Positions 12,374-26,076 of a DNA stretch of 26,138 nt are shown piece after piece. Below the pieces are notes generated by a model. That model was not told the DNA's origin. It saw only the letters and a list, made by a program, of their open reading frames with translations, and ran no database searches. Numbering within the stretch: position 1 is the stretch's first letter; the number at the start of each line of letters is the position of its first letter. Source of the DNA: a virus; IMG/VR virus record IMGVR_UViG_3300025806_000192, positions 1 through 26,138 of that record; one strand, written 5' to 3'. The position numbers and the translations under genes are program-made.

Positions 12374-12807
12374 TGCTAATTGAAATTGCAGCAGCGAATG
12401 CAGCATTTCAAGTCATCAAAGGAGCATTAGAAAACGGTAAAGAGCTTTACGATGTAGCAGAACAAGCCACTAAATATTTTGATAACAAATCTGCAATAGC
12501 TAAAAAGGCTGATCGCTCTGGAGGCTCTGATGAGCTTCAGTGCTTTATGGAGCTAGAAAAGATTAAAGAGCAGGAAGCATGGCTCAAAGACCACATGGTT
12601 TATGCTGGTCGTCCAGATATGTATGAGGACTGGTTAAAGTTTCAGTCTGAATGTAAACAAAAAAGAGAACGAGCAGAGCGTTTGCGTAAGCAAAAGAGAG
12701 CGGCTGATTTAGCGTTACTTGGATCAGCATTGTTGTGGGGAACAGGCGCTTTAGTGGTTCTTCCTTTTGTACTCTACGTAGCGTTTAAAGTATTTAAAAT
12801 TGTATAA
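12373..12807 (+). CDS. C-terminal tail-anchored coiled-coil membrane protein (144 aa), possible lysis accessory
   Basis: The start overlaps the previous stop (TAATG). Residues 1-60 form a helix-rich soluble part beginning with a mildly hydrophobic IEIAAANAAFQVIKGA stretch. Residues ~55-112 are highly charged, with coiled-coil character (ELEKIKEQEAWLKDHMVYAG, then KQKRERAERLRKQKR). A strong hydrophobic segment at ~113-137 and a short FKIV end anchor it. I have seen this type of protein next to lysis genes in phages. A spanin-like or holin-accessory role is possible but the topology (TM at the C-end) is unlike a classical Rz. Confidence 0.78.
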   Translation: MLIEIAAANAAFQVIKGALENGKELYDVAEQATKYFDNKSAIAKKADRSGGSDELQCFMELEKIKEQEAWLKDHMVYAGRPDMYEDWLKFQSECKQKRERAERLRKQKRAADLALLGSALLWGTGALVVLPFVLYVAFKVFKIV

Positions 12808-12822: not shown

Positions 12823-13068
12823 ATGGCTATTAGAAAACCACAGAAGTCTTTAAAAGCTTGGACAGCTCAGGACTGGGGTACTAAGTCTGGTAAGAAGTCT
12901 AGCAAAACAGGTGAACGGTATTTACCTAAGAAGGCTAGAGAGTCTCTAAGCTCTGCTGAGTATGCTCAGACAAGCGCAAAGAAACGTAAGGATACTAAGG
13001 CTGGTAAGCAGCACAGTCCACAGCCTAAGAAGATTGCAAAGAAAACTAAAAAATATAGAAAGGTATGA
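12823..13068 (+). CDS. Small, highly basic protein with WGTKSGKKS...GERYLPK motif (81 aa)
   Basis: AAAGGAG stands about 10 bases before ATG 12823; an in-frame GTG at 12814 sits too close to that site, so the shorter form is chosen. The product is about one-third Lys/Arg and contains LKAWTAQDWGTKSGKKSSKT followed by GERYLPKKARESLSSAEYAQ. This pattern is familiar from small uncharacterised phage proteins. No membrane segment is present. It may bind nucleic acid or another polyanion (inference from charge). It is in the lysis-adjacent cluster of basic proteins. Confidence 0.78.
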   Translation: MAIRKPQKSLKAWTAQDWGTKSGKKSSKTGERYLPKKARESLSSAEYAQTSAKKRKDTKAGKQHSPQPKKIAKKTKKYRKV

Positions 13069-15317: not shown

Positions 15318-16147
15318 ACTTCTTGTACCTTTGGTTCGCTTACAATTTTTGTAAAATACACATATCCTTTAGAGTAGTTAAACACTCTTATTGAAGGGTA
15401 GCATCTAAACTTATGAGGACAGTAACTACAATTCTTATCTAACTTTAAGTTACCTGACTTACCTTCTGGAATAGGATCGTAACATTTTTCAGGAGGACTT
15501 TCTTCTTCTAAAGATTTTCTAATCTTTGTAATCAAATTAAAGCTGTTAGGCTTATCTAATTCTTCAGGACGATGTAGTACTAACTCACCGCTTTCTTTAT
15601 TAATAACAAGGAAGCCGCCATTGCTTGTGCCTTCAGCTTCTTCGTATCCAGATAACTGAGCAAGGTATCCAAAAGGATCGTCATCAGCTAACGTACCTTT
15701 TTTAAATTTATTAAATGCAAAGTTAGAAGCTGTTTTAATATCTATAATTTCATTGTCAATTTTACAATCAATATGCCCCTTTACTCCATTAAGATTTACT
15801 TGCTTCTGCTTGTCTGTTGCTTTATGCCCAGCTAATTCTACCAACAATAAAAGAACTTCTTCTAAGATATGACCATATAAAAATTTAATAGGTAAAAACG
15901 AATCTTCATTTTTATTTTTACTAGGATACTTTGCATCATACCACATACGCCTTAATGGTCTACCTATACCAGACATTCGGATGCTATCTTTATTTACATC
16001 TTGAGCCTTAGACCAATGACGTAAAACATCTTTCATACTTTCTCCAAAAGAATTAATTGTATCTTCTGAAATTTTTAAAGATTTATTATTTGTCAAAGGC
16101 TCTATACTTTTATAGATATCGCCCACCAAAGTATCAAGATTTTTCAT
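15308..16147 (-). CDS. PD-(D/E)XK exonuclease, RecB/Cas4-like, with C-terminal Cys cluster
   Basis: The start at 16147 follows AAGGAAAG and gives 279 residues; an upstream ATG would extend further into the HNH gene and lacks such a site. Nuclease motifs in order: GHILEE (92-97), GHIDCK with Asp127, IIDIKTAS with Asp136 and Lys138, and YLAQLSGY with Gln164. Four cysteines follow (222, 240, 243, 249; CSYCPHKFRC), as in iron-sulfur or zinc versions of RecB-family nucleases. It probably does the job of T7 gp6 exonuclease: degrading host DNA, removing primers, recombination. The metal cluster is inferred from spacing. Confidence 0.87.
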   Translation of the reverse strand: MKNLDTLVGDIYKSIEPLTNNKSLKISEDTINSFGESMKDVLRHWSKAQDVNKDSIRMSGIGRPLRRMWYDAKYPSKNKNEDSFLPIKFLYGHILEEVLLLLVELAGHKATDKQKQVNLNGVKGHIDCKIDNEIIDIKTASNFAFNKFKKGTLADDDPFGYLAQLSGYEEAEGTSNGGFLVINKESGELVLHRPEELDKPNSFNLITKIRKSLEEESPPEKCYDPIPEGKSGNLKLDKNCSYCPHKFRCYPSIRVFNYSKGYVYFTKIVSEPKVQEVWL

Positions 16148-16526
16148 TTCTTTCCTTATAAAGATTTTCATAAAAGTCTGCAACCTGTCTAATCTGTAAA
16201 GGGGTTGCTTGATTTTTTATAGAGTTAGCCATCATAGAAACAATAATAATATTGTCTTTAGTATAGCCTTGTGTATTGTCAATTCTATCTATTGATGGAG
16301 AGTTATACCATGTCTCTCTACCTACTTGAAATTTAATATGTAATATGGGGCATAACAAAGGCATGTCAATATCTTCAAAACATAAATCAAAATAAATATT
16401 TTTTTTCTTTGCTCTTGTTCTTGTTGTTCGTATTAACGTTAAAATATATGCTCTACCATTAGGCATTATTTCTTTTTGTAAATATCTTTGTCTTCGTTTA
16501 CTAGCTTTATCATTAGTGGGTTTCAC
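16134..16526 (-). CDS. HNH-type endonuclease, probable free-standing homing endonuclease
   Basis: A GTG start with AGGAG 9 bases upstream gives 130 residues. The C-terminal half matches a small phage HNH-like family: CPILHIKF (59-66), SPSIDRIDNTQGYTKDN (76-92), then IVSMMANSIKNQATP. The N-terminal half is basic (ASKRRQRYLQKE and RTTRTRAKKK), suited to DNA binding. It sits between the DNA polymerase and exonuclease genes, overlapping each by exactly 14 bases. Location next to a conserved polymerase gene fits a mobile endonuclease, but a housekeeping role is not excluded. Confidence 0.82.
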   Translation of the reverse strand: MKPTNDKASKRRQRYLQKEIMPNGRAYILTLIRTTRTRAKKKNIYFDLCFEDIDMPLLCPILHIKFQVGRETWYNSPSIDRIDNTQGYTKDNIIIVSMMANSIKNQATPLQIRQVADFYENLYKERNEKS

Positions 16527-18255
16527 TCCAGTTTTCTCCTACTTTATATTCACCATCTAAAGGGCATCTTAAATTAAAAATAGAACTAACTTCTCTGATA
16601 GCTGAAACTCCAGAACTTCCTATTGTTTCTACATAATCTTCAGCAACTTCTAACTGCCATTCATCGTGTATGTTAGCTACAAAATAAGCAGGGTAGTTAT
16701 TATTTTTAATCTTGTTGTTCAGCAATACTAAACCTTGTTTCATTACTATAGCTCCTGCGCTTTGAAGTAAGGTATTCAAAGAAGCATGTTCATGTCTTAT
16801 TTTAACTTTTCTACCGTCTAATCCTTTAAGGTATCCTTTTGACGCCGCTCTTTCAGCTCTACCTTTAAGAGTTGCAAGTGATGGGAGATTAGATAGAAAA
16901 CGTTTTCGTAATTCTTTACCATCTCTTCTACTTCCTTTAACCACTTCTCCAAGCTTACCATCTCCTGCTCCGTATAAAAACGCATAGATGAAAGTCTTTG
17001 CCTGATTTCTTGATTCAAGTCCTGCAAGTTTTTGATTTGCTGTGTGTATATCTCCTGTGAGTATTTCATTAGTATATTCCTCATCATTCATATAATGTGC
17101 AAGCATTCTTAATTCTAACCCAGAAGCATCAATACCAACAAGCTTATAATTATTAGGTACAATCCAACAACTCCTGCAATCTTTTCCGTATGGGCTATAG
17201 CTTGCTGGAATCTGAGCCATGTTAGGTTTAAAGTGTGACATTCTTCCAGTAACTGCACCGTTAGAAACAACGTACCCATGTACTCTATTGTCTTCTTTTA
17301 GATTATCAAACCAAGAGTTTACTTGAGCAATTCTTTTTTGCAACATTAAAAATGTACCAATTAAGTTTGCTTCTGGAATATCTTTAACAGTTTTTAAAGT
17401 TCTTTCATCTACTTTAGGCTGACCATTAGGAGTAAACTCTTTAGGCTTCCAACCAAAATCCTGTAAGTATTCTCCTATTTGTTTTCTAGAATTAAGATTA
17501 AACTCTTCTAATTTTTTCCTATCAAACGGAAACAGCATAGTCTCTTTAGACTTTTTTAAAATACTTTCGTACTCTTCAGTAGTTAACCCAGATTTAGAAA
17601 GCTCACCATTTTGTTTCATTCTAGGAACAACGGTCTTTATAGTTATCAATTTAGGTTTAAATACTGTTTTAACTGTGTCTTCAATAGTTGTTTTTCTTTC
17701 ATTTAACTCAGCCAACAATACAGTTGCTTTAGGAACATCAAACAAAAATCCATGCTTCTCTTGATCCTTCAACACTAAAGATACTTCATGCTCTAGATTA
17801 ATAGACTTCTGATCAAAATCAGATAACTCTTTAATAAGTTCTTCAAATACTAAAGCATTTAACTCTACATCATTTACACAATACTTTAACATGTCAAGAC
17901 TGTACTCTGTAAATCCTGTTTCCTGCATGTCTCCTTTTAAAAAATCTAAAGTAAAACCCCACTGCCTTAAGCTATGACCTCCTCTTTCTGGATTAGCTAA
18001 ACGTGATAAAACTAATGTGTCAATTATCTTTTTATTTTTAAAATTTATATCAGTCAATCTTTCTAGTACAGGAATATCAAAGCCTAATATATTATGACCT
18101 ACTAGTAACGTTGCTTTTTCAAGCAGCTTTAAACCTTCTTTAATAGATGAAGGATCAAACTTAAAAATTTCTTTAGTGTCTAAATCTTTAGCTACAATAC
18201 ACCATATTTTTGTAGCTTGTAACCCATCAGTTTCTATATCAAAAACTAGTTTCAT
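16513..18255 (-). CDS. Family A DNA polymerase with 3'-5' exonuclease (T7 gp5-like)
   Basis: The start at 18255 is set by the ATGA overlap with the small upstream gene and by alignment of MKLVFDIETDGL with the T7 N-terminus; an in-frame ATG at 18267 is less likely. Exonuclease: Asp6/Glu8, GHNILGFD (Asp60), NDVE (Asp129). Polymerase motif A GIDASGLELR (Asp376), motif B AKTFIYAFLYGAG (Lys420, Tyr424), motif C IHDEWQL (Asp531). At 580 residues it is shorter than T7 gp5 (704). The part matching the thioredoxin-binding insert is replaced by a shorter segment (~205-252). It replicates phage DNA with the primase-helicase and SSB. The processivity partner is unknown. Confidence 0.96.
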   Translation of the reverse strand: MKLVFDIETDGLQATKIWCIVAKDLDTKEIFKFDPSSIKEGLKLLEKATLLVGHNILGFDIPVLERLTDINFKNKKIIDTLVLSRLANPERGGHSLRQWGFTLDFLKGDMQETGFTEYSLDMLKYCVNDVELNALVFEELIKELSDFDQKSINLEHEVSLVLKDQEKHGFLFDVPKATVLLAELNERKTTIEDTVKTVFKPKLITIKTVVPRMKQNGELSKSGLTTEEYESILKKSKETMLFPFDRKKLEEFNLNSRKQIGEYLQDFGWKPKEFTPNGQPKVDERTLKTVKDIPEANLIGTFLMLQKRIAQVNSWFDNLKEDNRVHGYVVSNGAVTGRMSHFKPNMAQIPASYSPYGKDCRSCWIVPNNYKLVGIDASGLELRMLAHYMNDEEYTNEILTGDIHTANQKLAGLESRNQAKTFIYAFLYGAGDGKLGEVVKGSRRDGKELRKRFLSNLPSLATLKGRAERAASKGYLKGLDGRKVKIRHEHASLNTLLQSAGAIVMKQGLVLLNNKIKNNNYPAYFVANIHDEWQLEVAEDYVETIGSSGVSAIREVSSIFNLRCPLDGEYKVGENWSETH

Positions 18256-18422
18256 AGTGTCACCCATACATAAAGAAATAATAAAAATATAACGGCAGAT
18301 GTTTTAATATAAGTTCTTTCGTTCTCACTTAACTCACCCGCCGTCATGTCTTCCCAAACCCCTTTAATTAAAGAGGTCAATCTGGCTAAGATGTTTCTGC
18401 CTTTGTCCCGCAATAAACGCAT
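18252..18422 (-). CDS. Small membrane protein directly upstream of DNA polymerase (56 aa)
   Basis: A strong AAAGGAG lies 6-7 bases before ATG 18422, inside the 3' part of the preceding gene in another frame (59-base overlap). The product starts with a basic amphipathic region (MRLLRDKGRNILARLTSLIK) and ends with a hydrophobic segment (TSAVIFLLFLYVWVTL). Its TGA overlaps the polymerase ATG. The ribosome binding site, junction and composition together make it a convincing gene. Function is unknown; it might tether replication to the membrane, or simply couple polymerase translation. Confidence 0.7.
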   Translation of the reverse strand: MRLLRDKGRNILARLTSLIKGVWEDMTAGELSENERTYIKTSAVIFLLFLYVWVTL

Positions 18423-18621
18423 GTGATTCTCCTTTAGGTAGTATGTATTTCAAAACAGTTTCAAAGCATTCAACCCTCCACTCATCGTTATAAAAATCTT
18501 CTTTATGGTCAGCGTTTTCAGGATCATACCCACTGAATGTTTCAAGTAATCCCACATAGGATTCTTTAACAAACTCTATACCGATTGCATCTACTGTGTC
18601 CCAGTCTATATCAAATTTCAT
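18364..18621 (-). CDS. Small acidic protein of unknown function (85 aa)
   Basis: The start at 18621 (after AGAAGAAA, overlapping the end of the previous small gene) is preferred to a longer in-frame form that would overlap that gene much more. The product is acidic with aromatic residues (MKFDIDWDTVDAIG, then FYNDEWRVECFETVLKYILP). Its N-terminus resembles that of the gene before it (MKVDIDIIDCLID). I cannot name a function. Confidence 0.65.
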   Translation of the reverse strand: MKFDIDWDTVDAIGIEFVKESYVGLLETFSGYDPENADHKEDFYNDEWRVECFETVLKYILPKGESHAFIAGQRQKHLSQIDLFN

Positions 18622-18754
18622 TTTCTTCTCTTGCTTTATAAATTTCTTCCCATGTAAAAAACTTCCCAGTCTTATCGTTGTAAACACCTTCTAAGTCTGT
18701 TGTTCTTTCAGCGGTATCAATTAAACAATCAATAATATCTATGTCAACTTTCAT
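18611..18754 (-). CDS. Very small protein of unknown function (47 aa)
   Basis: ATG 18754 overlaps the stop of the 52-aa gene before it (ATGA), and its own end overlaps the next start by 11 bases. The product begins MKVDIDIIDCLIDTAERTTD and ends in a charged helix. The similar start in the next gene hints at a shared short motif or an old duplication. Support is from junctions and composition only. Confidence 0.55.
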   Translation of the reverse strand: MKVDIDIIDCLIDTAERTTDLEGVYNDKTGKFFTWEEIYKAREENEI

Positions 18755-18909
18755 TTTGCATCCTCTTTAATCTTCACTAGGAACGGCATGATTAAATCTA
18801 CAGCTTCATCCAAAGCACATTTGTATCCAAATATATAGTCATCAGGATAACCACTTAAATCTTGTTCTTTAAGCGTCATTAACTCCCATATTAATTCTTT
18901 CTTATTCAT
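18751..18909 (-). CDS. Small protein, paralogue of the gene at 25588-25749 (52 aa)
   Basis: The ATG overlaps the stop of the alpha-CTD-like gene (ATGA). The sequence MNKKELIWELMTLKEQDLSG, then LDEAVDLIMPFLVKIKED, is clearly related to a 53-aa product about 6.8 kb away on the same strand, with both ends nearly identical and the middle diverged. Conservation of a paralogue shows that the frame is real. Function unknown; it is acidic and helical. Confidence 0.72.
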   Translation of the reverse strand: MNKKELIWELMTLKEQDLSGYPDDYIFGYKCALDEAVDLIMPFLVKIKEDAK

Positions 18910-19391
18910 CCGTTCACCATCTCATCTTTTATAATTAACTCCACAGTTACGTCACCGTCAGGGTAAAACGCATACGCTGCAAGAAGACAGTCTCTTAGGC
19001 TTAGTATTTCTCTGAGCTGTTCTTCTGGGTCGTCATAGTCCTTAACGGTAGTAAAACAAGCAAGCATAGTCTTTCTATTTGAAAGTTTCTGGATGCCATC
19101 AATACAAACAATGCCCCTTGTATAAGCCTGAAGAATATAGTCTGCGTCTAGGTCAATCTTTACTTCGGTTCCTTCAGCAGGTACATGAGTACCAAGCTCT
19201 AGTCCATGCCTAGCAAGAACACCTTCTATTTCCGTCAACTGTTTTTTACCTATGTTGCGAGTTTTTAAAACCTGTTTTTCTGTTAACTTAACAAGCTCAC
19301 TAACTAAAGTAATTTTCTCAGCGTGAAGACAATTTGTGGAACGTACCGACAGCCCTAGCTCCTCTATCTTTTTATATAACATATCGTTCAT
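18906..19391 (-). CDS. RNA polymerase alpha-CTD-like protein (161 aa)
   Basis: Residues 5-67 match the C-terminal domain of bacterial RNA polymerase alpha. Compared with E. coli: Arg17 = Arg265, Asn20 = Asn268 (VRSTNCL versus VRSANCL), Gly48 = Gly296, Lys49/50 = Lys297/298, Glu54 = Glu302 (NIGKKQLTEI versus NLGKKSLTEI); Ser299 is Gln51. The residues that contact UP-element DNA are therefore almost all kept. The alpha N-terminal dimerisation domain is absent. The C-terminal ~90 residues (IDLDADYILQAYTRGIVCID onwards) match nothing I know. It could recruit or compete with host polymerase at phage or host promoters. A strong GAGGAG precedes the start, which overlaps the previous stop. Confidence 0.85.
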   Translation of the reverse strand: MNDMLYKKIEELGLSVRSTNCLHAEKITLVSELVKLTEKQVLKTRNIGKKQLTEIEGVLARHGLELGTHVPAEGTEVKIDLDADYILQAYTRGIVCIDGIQKLSNRKTMLACFTTVKDYDDPEEQLREILSLRDCLLAAYAFYPDGDVTVELIIKDEMVNG

Positions 19392-19579
19392 GATAGCTCC
19401 TCAGCTTCTTCATTATATAAATCAATCGTATCTTCAATAGCTTTATAAACTAACTGTATAAACCTTTCGCTTTCAAAAATATCATCTAACTTTTTTTCAA
19501 TTAAGATTTCTAAACTTGTTTGTAGTCCTTTGTCTATACTTGGCAGAGGTTCTACTGTTTTAAAAACTAAGTCGCTCAT
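19388..19579 (-). CDS. Small acidic protein of unknown function (63 aa)
   Basis: A GAGG precedes the ATG, which overlaps the previous stop (ATGA); its own end overlaps the alpha-CTD-like start in the same way. The product is acidic and helical in the second half (DIFESERFIQLVYKAIEDTI). Tight coupling with the alpha-CTD-like gene suggests co-production, perhaps as a partner, but nothing else shows this. Confidence 0.62.
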   Translation of the reverse strand: MSDLVFKTVEPLPSIDKGLQTSLEILIEKKLDDIFESERFIQLVYKAIEDTIDLYNEEAEELS

Positions 19580-19731: not shown

Positions 19732-21405
19732 TTAAAAAGGGATATCTGAAAATTCTAAAGTATCTTTATCTGTTAAAGGAACTTCGTTTAATCTGCCTGT
19801 TTCTTCATCATACAAAAGCTGAGCAGCTAGACCTACGTTACCTGTATAGCGAGACTTTAGAACTCTTACTCTTGTAGTCTTAGACTCTACTACATCATTA
19901 GATTGTTGGTTTCTTTCTAATGCAATAATAGAATCAGCTACATGAGCAATACCTGCTGACCCTCTAATGTGGTGCATCTTAACTTCAGCACCGTTTTCAT
20001 GTCCTTCAGTAGATCCTCTGTTCAAGTGAGATACACATATCATACCTGCGTTAGTCTCTGCTGCTAAACTTCTTAGGTTTGTCATTAGATTATCAATCGT
20101 TCTTCTTTCATCAAGAGTATCAGAACCTGAAACAAACATGTGCAAGTGATCCACTATAATCCATTTGCAATCGCAACCTATAATCATAAACCTTAGCTTA
20201 GATAAAGTTTCTTCAATGCTGTTAACACCAAAGTGAGCATGTATAAATATTTTATCTTCTGACAATACTTGATTATATAAAACACTTAGTTGTTCTTCAT
20301 CGTACTTATCTCTTACTTCTGCTAAATGAAGCTTATCATTTGCTGCAACAGAAACAATACCGTCTACAGTTCTTCTCCAATCTTCTTCTAAAGCTATGAT
20401 ACCAATCTTGTCAGGACTATTAGTTATCAGATGATGTGTCAACTCTCTAGTCACAGCACTCTTACCTAACCCTGTACCACCCGCAACTATTAACAACTCT
20501 CCCTGCCGTATCCCAATTAACTTTTCATTTAAGCCTTGCCAAGGATACTCAACTGAAGCATTCACATCTCTGTGTAGCCATTCATCTAGCTTTTCTGAAG
20601 CTCTAATAATTCCTGTAGGAGTAAAGGTACGTGCCGCCCAGAACGCTGCTGTAAATTCTTGATAGGCGTTCTGTTTGAGCATGTCATTAGCATCCTTAAA
20701 TCCTACAGGAAGAGTCATGATCTTAGCTTTGTTAGGTTTAAACAATGTTGCAACTTTAGTAGCTGCTTCTGTACCAGCTTTGTCATTATCAAAACAAATA
20801 ATTACATTGTCGTATGTCTCTAAAAATTCTAAGTTCTTTTTAATATCTGTGGTTGCTGACTGAGCACCATTCTTAATAGATACACAAGACCATTTACTAC
20901 CTGTAAGTTCGTAAGCTGCCATAGCATCACACTCACCTTCAGTAATCGTAATATACTTTCCACCTGTTTGACAGATTGACTGACCAAACAAACCCGCAGA
21001 CTGTATCTTACCTTGAGCTACAAACTTCTTAGTTTTTACTTTACGAATTTTGTAGCCTACTAACTCTCGATCACAATAGTATGGGTAGTAATGCTCATTG
21101 ATGTTACCTTCAGTATCGAATGTAACTCTTACATTATATTTCTTAGCTGTCTCTTCCCTAATCTTACGGTCAGTTAAATTGCTAAAGATGCCAATGTAAT
21201 CATCCTTAGAAAAGTGAACAACATTATTCTTAGGTTCTTGTGCTACTACACTACTTAACTTATTAGTTTCTGTTTTATAAGGTTCTTCAAAATCTTTCAT
21301 AAAATCTCCACAACTAAAACACTTTGCTGATCCATCGTCATTGATACTCACAGCGTCTGAACTTTTACACTTAGGACATGCTACATGAAACTTAACGAAT
21401 GCCAC
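19732..21405 (-). CDS. Primase-helicase (T7 gp4-like)
   Basis: The GTG start is supported by AAAGGAG about 8 bases upstream and by overlap with the previous TAG. The 557 residues show the full T7 gp4 plan: N-terminal zinc site Cys10/Cys13/Cys29/Cys32; TOPRIM primase with TEGECDA (Glu157) and ICFDNDKAG (Asp207, Asp209); a linker near 265-290; RecA-type helicase with Walker A GGTGLGKS (309-316), Walker B IIVDHLHMF (Asp419) and VSHLNR (His460). It unwinds DNA ahead of the polymerase and makes primers. The last residues (LEFSDIPF) form an acidic, Phe-ended tail, as in T7 where this tail binds the polymerase. Confidence 0.96.
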   Translation of the reverse strand: MAFVKFHVACPKCKSSDAVSINDDGSAKCFSCGDFMKDFEEPYKTETNKLSSVVAQEPKNNVVHFSKDDYIGIFSNLTDRKIREETAKKYNVRVTFDTEGNINEHYYPYYCDRELVGYKIRKVKTKKFVAQGKIQSAGLFGQSICQTGGKYITITEGECDAMAAYELTGSKWSCVSIKNGAQSATTDIKKNLEFLETYDNVIICFDNDKAGTEAATKVATLFKPNKAKIMTLPVGFKDANDMLKQNAYQEFTAAFWAARTFTPTGIIRASEKLDEWLHRDVNASVEYPWQGLNEKLIGIRQGELLIVAGGTGLGKSAVTRELTHHLITNSPDKIGIIALEEDWRRTVDGIVSVAANDKLHLAEVRDKYDEEQLSVLYNQVLSEDKIFIHAHFGVNSIEETLSKLRFMIIGCDCKWIIVDHLHMFVSGSDTLDERRTIDNLMTNLRSLAAETNAGMICVSHLNRGSTEGHENGAEVKMHHIRGSAGIAHVADSIIALERNQQSNDVVESKTTRVRVLKSRYTGNVGLAAQLLYDEETGRLNEVPLTDKDTLEFSDIPF

Positions 21406-22720: not shown

Positions 22721-22740
22721 GCTTTTTCTTTGTTTATTTT

Positions 22741-22806
22741 CTCCAACAATAGTATACTTAGTAACCATCATTAAAAAAAAATATGAAGCAGTTTAATCAC
22801 ATGCTT
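22741..22806 (-). promoter_or_regulatory. Duplicated control element, copy 1 (TATACT box, A/T tract, dyad)
   Basis: The 16-mer CTCCAACAATAGTATA (22741-22756, plus-strand reading) is identical to 26012-26027. It is followed in both copies by a similar AG/AAC segment, an A tract, and a dyad with an 11-base spacer. In this copy the dyad is AAGCA-11-TGCTT (22786-22790 / 22802-22806). On the minus strand the order is dyad, T tract, TATACT, ATTGTTGGAG, which resembles an activator-type promoter without a good -35. It lies ~80 bases before SSB, compared with ~75 bases before the 62-aa gene for copy 2. Confidence 0.62.
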
Positions 22807-25587: not shown

Positions 25588-25749
25588 TTATTCTCCTGAT
25601 AAATCTTCAATCTTTATTAAAAACGGCATGATTAAATCTATAGCTTCATTCAAAGCATCTCTATATCCAATCTTAAATTCAAAATCATAATTATCTAGAT
25701 CTTGTTCTTTAAGAACCATTAACTTCCATATTAATTCTTTCTTATTCAT
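25588..25749 (-). CDS. Small protein, paralogue of the gene at 18751-18909 (53 aa)
   Basis: The ATG overlaps the previous stop (TAATG). The start MNKKELIWKLMVLKEQDLDN and the segment ALNEAIDLIMPFLIKIED match the other copy closely, while residues ~20-30 and the last few differ. The DNA is also recognisably similar over most of the length. Function unknown. It ends 2 bases past the next start. Confidence 0.72.
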   Translation of the reverse strand: MNKKELIWKLMVLKEQDLDNYDFEFKIGYRDALNEAIDLIMPFLIKIEDLSGE

Positions 25750-25998: not shown

Positions 25999-26011
25999 GA
26001 TACCTATCTTG

Positions 26012-26076
26012 CTCCAACAATAGTATATCTAGAAACTTATTTTTAAAAAAACTGAACAGTTTACAGACATGTTCAG
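26012..26076 (-). promoter_or_regulatory. Duplicated control element, copy 2
   Basis: CTCCAACAATAGTATA (26012-26027) repeats copy 1 exactly. An A tract follows, then the dyad CTGAACA (26052-26058) / TGTTCAG (26070-26076), again with an 11-base spacer beginning GTTTA and ending CA. Relative to copy 1 the inner arms change from AGCA/TGCT to AACA/TGTT, keeping complementarity. On the minus strand the TATACT box would direct transcription into the 62-aa gene ~75 bases away. Confidence 0.62.

Follow-up and report, generated by a model that had tools for sequence, protein, structure and literature searches.

The window, i. e. the whole stretch of 26,138 nucleotides of viral DNA analysed here, encodes on its minus strand at 18906-19391 a protein of 161 amino acids in which an N-terminal RNA polymerase α-CTD is joined to a phage C-domain (Table 1). 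This open reading frame (ORF), which we could confirm, shares 4 bp with each of its two neighbours and thus belongs to a densely packed, coupled operon. In the window and in the 40.8-kb record G004 alike, the gene is located between those for a primase-helicase and a DNA polymerase, within the replication module. The position behind the fusion gene is occupied by one copy of a duplicated ORF of 52-53 amino acids (MNKKELIW...), corresponding to a 146-nt direct repeat (80%) at 18764-18909 and 25604-25749 of the window. Six further contigs encode the fusion, one of them as an identical protein specified by different DNA, which excludes an assembly artefact; the E-value, the predicted fold and these independent contigs together rule out a chance match. 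A full RpoA or host contamination was also discarded, with the flanks being phage replication genes and no α-NTD detected by Pfam in the 161-aa ORF. The sequence-only reading of this locus, which had described an α-CTD lacking the dimerisation domain, was thus right in this respect.

Table 1. Features of the fusion locus and candidate target elements in the window.
Feature	Position	Strand	Basis or remark
Fusion ORF, 161 aa, α-CTD head and phage C-domain	18906..19391	(-)	ORF call, Pfam, other contigs
α-CTD domain, residues 1-70	19182..19391	(-)	PF03118, PDB sequence matches, predicted fold
DNA-contact stretch, residues 17-54	19230..19343	(-)	Equivalents of R265, N268, C269, N294, G296, K298, Q(S299), E302
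Linker, residues 71-77	19161..19181	(-)	pLDDT dip; start point of stand-alone C-domain proteins
C-domain, residues 78-161, β-β-α-β	18906..19160	(-)	84-100 aa stand-alone protein in relatives
Swapped cassette, about codon 91 of fusion through next small gene	18751..19118	(-)	Alignment to G004
Preceding 63-aa ORF	19388..19579	(-)	4-bp overlap with fusion ORF
52-aa ORF after fusion	18751-18909		4-bp overlap with fusion ORF
Conserved 85-107 aa gene	18364..18687	(-)	After C-domain gene in many relatives
Primase-helicase, upstream of fusion	19732..21405	(-)	phrog_239, E=2e-172
DNA polymerase, downstream of fusion	16513..18267	(-)	phrog_17, E=5e-142
Promoter-like element TTTCTAGATATACTATTGTTGGAG behind T/A tract	26012..26035, wider 26009-26051	(-)	Candidate target, speculative
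Second copy, 3 mismatches, upstream of SSB-like gene	22741..22764, wider 22738-22780	(-)	

Residues 3-60 of the head match PF03118 (RNA_pol_A_CTD) with an E-value of 1.1e-19 and 70.4 bits at a curated cut-off of 23.8, and the top matches among PDB sequences are exclusively RpoA α-CTDs, including those of Caulobacter and E. coli. In an AlphaFold2 model built from the family alignment, residues 1-70 reach a pLDDT of about 83-95, which drops to about 58 in the linker region (residues 71-80). The α-CTD fold that this model displays agrees with E. coli α-CTD 3n4m_B at a Foldseek TM-score of 0.93 by target length, and each of the best 50 matches listed (50/50) is an RNA polymerase α. Since the significant sequence matches and the listed fold matches are thus RNA polymerase α, a generic helix-hairpin-helix (HhH) protein of DNA repair, the outcome that the earlier reading had named as contradicting its proposal, can be ruled out. 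The identity to bacterial RpoA α-CTDs amounts to about 48-55% over ~67 residues, the closest of these among the matches listed being only ~55% identical, which also speaks against a host contaminant. Bacterial RpoA carries its α-CTD behind an α-NTD, whereas the phage α-CTD precedes a phage domain. The six phage α-CTDs form one clade (100/100) that is placed within the proteobacterial α-CTDs on a long branch, and an attempt to infer the host from this position failed.

Mapping onto the E. coli protein equates R265, N268, C269, N294, G296, K297, K298 and E302 with R17, N20, C21, N46, G48, K49, K50 and E54 of the phage protein, with Q51 in place of S299. Seven of the eight positions which we take to be the DNA contacts of E. 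coli α-CTD (R265, N268, C269, N294, G296, K298, S299 and E302) are therefore kept in the window protein, and the contact set listed from the sequence alone, with S299 to Gln as its single change, was correct. Residue retention was determined for the six phage α-CTDs against 20 RpoA sequences, picked across the matches listed in a search through Pseudomonadota genomes that evenly sample the phylum. N268, G296, K298 and E302 are present in all six phage copies and R265, C269 and N294 in five of six each, while the S299 position harbors Ser in 20/20 bacteria and Gln in 6/6 phage copies. Mean retention is 0.81 at the eight contact positions versus 0.29 at 14 further conserved positions (polar or Gly/Pro), a gap with a permutation p of 0.0018 that is indicative only, because the six phage copies are related. 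The non-DNA surfaces, compared in a larger bacterial sample that was partly selected by sequence pattern, have diverged: E261 is lost in 5/6 phage copies, and Q283 and E288 in 6/6. Presumably, E261 belongs to the 261 determinant for σ contact and E288 to the 287 determinant for activator contact, as in E. coli α-CTD; judged from these residues, the loss of both makes it less likely that the protein simply replaces host α-CTD in touching σ or CRP-type activators. Both are functional surfaces of RpoA on which assignment to PF03118 does not depend. The one copy lacking the key DNA contact R265 (L005), which has Cys instead, belongs to the near-identical phage G004.

When viral contigs were scanned with the family alignment, 43 loci were obtained. 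Besides a few fused loci and fragments at contig ends, these encode a stand-alone product of 84-100 amino acids that aligns to residues ~67-161 only. The C-terminal ~85 residues hence constitute a discrete domain that occurs by itself in over 30 related viral contigs, and PF03118 is present in 6 of the 43 records searched. It follows from this distribution that the α-CTD is the added part. While the earlier reading had correctly pointed out the α-CTD, the absent α-NTD and the absent phage polymerase, and also suggested that the C-terminal part might be phage-specific, its view of the two parts needs correction: as far as these sequences tell, the C-domain is the phage product with the wider distribution and the stronger constraint, onto which the α-CTD was joined as an accessory piece. 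Pairwise dN/dS values, all rough Nei-Gojobori estimates from short sequences, are 0.08-0.36 for the C-domain versus about 0.6-0.8 in most α-CTD pairs, which corresponds to weak purifying selection on the latter.

The C-domain is predicted to adopt a β-β-α-β fold (pLDDT 86, pTM 0.71) for which Foldseek returned no significant match in the PDB or among the viral models of BFVD. Its weak neighbours, with phi29 p6 on top and PII-like folds also included, have Z-scores of at most 4.1, none of them significant, and the absent match does not amount to a new fold. Neither Pfam nor PHROG contains a family for the C-domain, and a match in annotated phages was not found. The stand-alone gene often precedes the same 85-aa gene, either directly or with one small gene in between, which is then followed by ThyX. 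Directly after the C-domain gene, small genes of the GerE/LuxR helix-turn-helix (HTH) type are seen at L004:584-802, L039:4261-4479 and L047:4279-4470 (Pfam was run on two of these, L004 and L047), which suggests that this slot is a regulatory one.

Comparison of the window with G004 reveals how the two domains have been combined. Both genomes are about 90-99% identical over most of their common length and 97% in the longest blocks. The fusion genes are near 98% identical up to codon 91 and then drop to about 50-80% in codons 91-144; the small gene after the fusion differs as well. A cassette with about 60% identity thus resides in an otherwise about 97% identical genome, i. e. the C-domain has been swapped behind a constant α-CTD. 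In the C-domain tree, the fused copies are distributed over three subfamilies, its well-supported branches require at least four changes, and a single C-domain clade of fused copies is rejected. The one α-CTD clade, the three C-domain subfamilies and the swap together indicate that one α-CTD head was joined with three C-domain subfamilies; L005 has, in addition, a tandem stand-alone C-domain from a different subfamily. We infer from these alignments that the combinations were made by recombination at or close to the conserved beginning of the C-domain, and the order of events is deduced in the same manner.

The window protein is not unique, because α-CTDs without α-NTD recur across several phage lineages, as judged by sequence. 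Bacillus phage vB_BmeM-Goe8, a herellevirus, encodes in its terminal repeat an 'RNA polymerase subunit alpha' (QDP42789.1) of 210 amino acids with a C-terminal α-CTD (E=4e-22). Like the window protein, it combines a phage-encoded α-CTD with a phage-specific domain and lacks an α-NTD; in contrast, its α-CTD is C-terminal and Firmicutes-like, its partner domain, which matches an SBSphiC protein over residues 1-143 and thus outside the α-CTD, is unrelated, and it represents a separate capture. Microbacterium phage Atraxi gp24 is another such protein, and IMG/VR contigs, some of them maybe prophage or host DNA, contribute further α-CTD proteins of 97-406 amino acids without recognised α-NTD. In three viral contigs (L232, L236 and L238), Pfam assigns σ70 region 4 together with an α-CTD; these proteins share the α-CTD module and the missing α-NTD with the window family, but have a σ region 4 HTH as their recognisable partner, and L232 branches apart. 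By eye, a σ70-region-4-like HTH with an α-CTD and no α-NTD can also be seen in L233, L239-L241, L244, L245 and L251-L253. A 142-aa protein at L247:2794-3222 shows a below-cut-off match to the late activator phi29 gp4, followed by an α-CTD. In the α-CTD tree, which has few columns and long branches, the other phage α-CTDs lie apart from the window family with Firmicutes- or alphaproteobacterial-like sequences. PHROG families gave no match for the window, Goe8 or Atraxi proteins, a first scan of genome contigs, queried with the alignment of the phage α-CTDs, yielded no confirmed relative, and in the open-licence literature we came across no account of a solitary α-CTD encoded by a phage. Many 'phage' database matches were rejected as bacterial rpoA in mislabelled records, e. 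g. L215 and L217.

With 49% identity, the DNA polymerase of the window, which stems from a marine phage, is closest to that of HTVC103P-type pelagiphages. This group and related unclassified metagenomic genomes have HMO-2011-type structural genes in common (PMC8528129). As the sequence-only reading had noted for the window, a single-subunit RNA polymerase (PF00940) is found neither there nor in G004, HTVC104P and relatives of 47-51 kb, some of which may be partial records, while Pelagibacter phage HTVC011P, the positive control, matched at 2e-91. The divergent control region of G004 contains TTGACA-17-TATAAT and TTGACA-17-TATACT on opposite strands. These putative promoters match the σ70 consensus at 12/12 and 11/12 positions, which is consistent with use of the host polymerase.

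G004 further harbors four copies of a 51-nt element around GTTTCTAGATATACTATTGTTGGAG (L009:12381-12431, 12667-12717, 12841-12891 and 15955-16005), of which the fourth is diverged and two lie in the window. Each is preceded by a T/A tract and has an early gene downstream. This promoter-like repeat, TTTCTAGATATACT, includes a -10-like TATACT and no canonical -35 box, and it may, speculatively, be the target of the fusion protein. A common target for all family members is unsupported, since the repeat was found only in the phage species of the window and not in other relatives, most of whose records are without control regions.

We consider the chances about even that the fusion protein is an early phage transcription factor, in which a captured bacterial α-CTD has been joined to a small phage-specific domain. 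Judging from its kept contact residues, the head would hold A/T-rich promoter DNA, and the C-domain could provide a phage-specific contact to host RNA polymerase, another promoter-bound factor or itself. As the searches detected no RNA polymerase of the phage, the protein would most likely act on the host polymerase at phage promoters, with the TATACT repeat as candidate site; its use is probably to steer or to block host polymerase. This reading is favoured by the identity of the head in sequence and predicted fold, the retention gap, the lack of a phage RNA polymerase match in G004 next to a working positive control, the σ70-consensus promoter matches of G004, the HTH genes adjoining the C-domain gene in L004, L039 and L047, the terminal-repeat location of the Goe8 gene, the proteins with σ70 region 4, and the gp4 match of L247. 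Against it count the place of the gene in the replication module, Gln for S299 in all six copies, Cys for R265 in G004, the weak selection on the α-CTD compared with the C-domain, and the restriction of the repeat to one phage species. The phi29 late activator p4 works through the host α-CTD. Like p4 and T4 factors, the fusion protein would be a small phage protein that controls host polymerase via the interface of α-CTD and upstream DNA, but those act on the host α-CTD, whereas the phage of the window encodes its own.

Activation at phage promoters is favoured, on sequence grounds, over four alternatives. The solitary α-CTD could instead, without bringing polymerase, cover the A-tracts or UP elements that belong to strong host promoters, e. 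g. of rRNA; host α-CTD would then be displaced and host transcription reduced, and phage promoters with canonical -35 boxes would remain active. A DNA face kept alongside the loss of E261 and E288 is as expected of a binder outside activation, and the phage control region does have σ70-consensus promoter matches. Monomeric α-CTD binds DNA weakly, however, and such a competitor would therefore need high expression or oligomerisation via the C-domain; since it also leaves the C-domain swap behind a constant head unexplained, we regard it as unlikely. Somewhat less likely again is a role in replication or genome handling, for which the α-CTD would be reused as a generic HhH module of minor-groove binding that brings a small, replication-linked protein to phage DNA. 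This idea is in line with a gene flanked by primase-helicase and DNA polymerase in the window and G004, and with the DNA-organising phi29 p6 as top, non-significant fold neighbour of the C-domain, but the head resembles RNA polymerase α rather than repair HhH proteins in its listed matches, the C-domain gene of relatives precedes ThyX, ahead of SSB and primase, and the second domain of other phage α-CTD proteins, where recognisable, is in most cases transcriptional. It appears improbable that the α-CTD is a decaying accessory of little function next to a C-domain that does the work: its dN/dS of 0.6-0.8 in most pairs, the R265C change in L005 and its absence from most relatives would agree with decay, yet the head still has an open frame, forms one monophyletic family across divergent phages (57-96% identity), retains its DNA face and is paired with three C-domain subfamilies. 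Least probable is a decoy that mimics host α and absorbs an α-CTD-targeting factor of the host or a rival phage, thereby protecting or re-routing transcription, because, even though phage factors that act on α exist in T4 (review, PMC2988021) and in the form of Rac of phiKMV-like phages (PMC7552054), the diverged part of the head comprises the non-DNA surfaces, where most protein partners bind.

A broader proposal, which we advance tentatively and at less than even odds, is that phages make repeated use of the α-CTD as a module that has escaped recognition: separate captures from host RpoA, joined to unrelated phage domains or to σ region 4, may have given rise to proteins that bind promoters in trans and redirect host RNA polymerase, with an unchanged head receiving different phage-specific partners in the present family. 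RNA polymerase is known to recognise UP elements through α-CTD as an integral component of the enzyme. If this component indeed resides on a separate phage protein, this would be a natural test of α-CTD action in trans, and a solitary α-CTD would give polymerase-less marine phages control over host transcription. The similar finds in unrelated phages suggest an overlooked class of transcription factors.

Before early genes of many relatives, a conserved hairpin-forming motif resembling CCTGAGTATG..TAAACTACTCA is found in intergenic sites of L027, L034, L026, L045, L039, L047 and L041, and in L009 near 12650, and the intergenic stretch L027:809-1156 carries tandem copies of GGGATCTATATAGGGCTTT. 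At L009:11754-11856, there is a perfect 21-nt inverted repeat with 61 nt between its arms, the right one of which covers AAGGAG, the ribosome site of an early gene that is the first of its kind and encodes 158 aa, making a translational switch possible.
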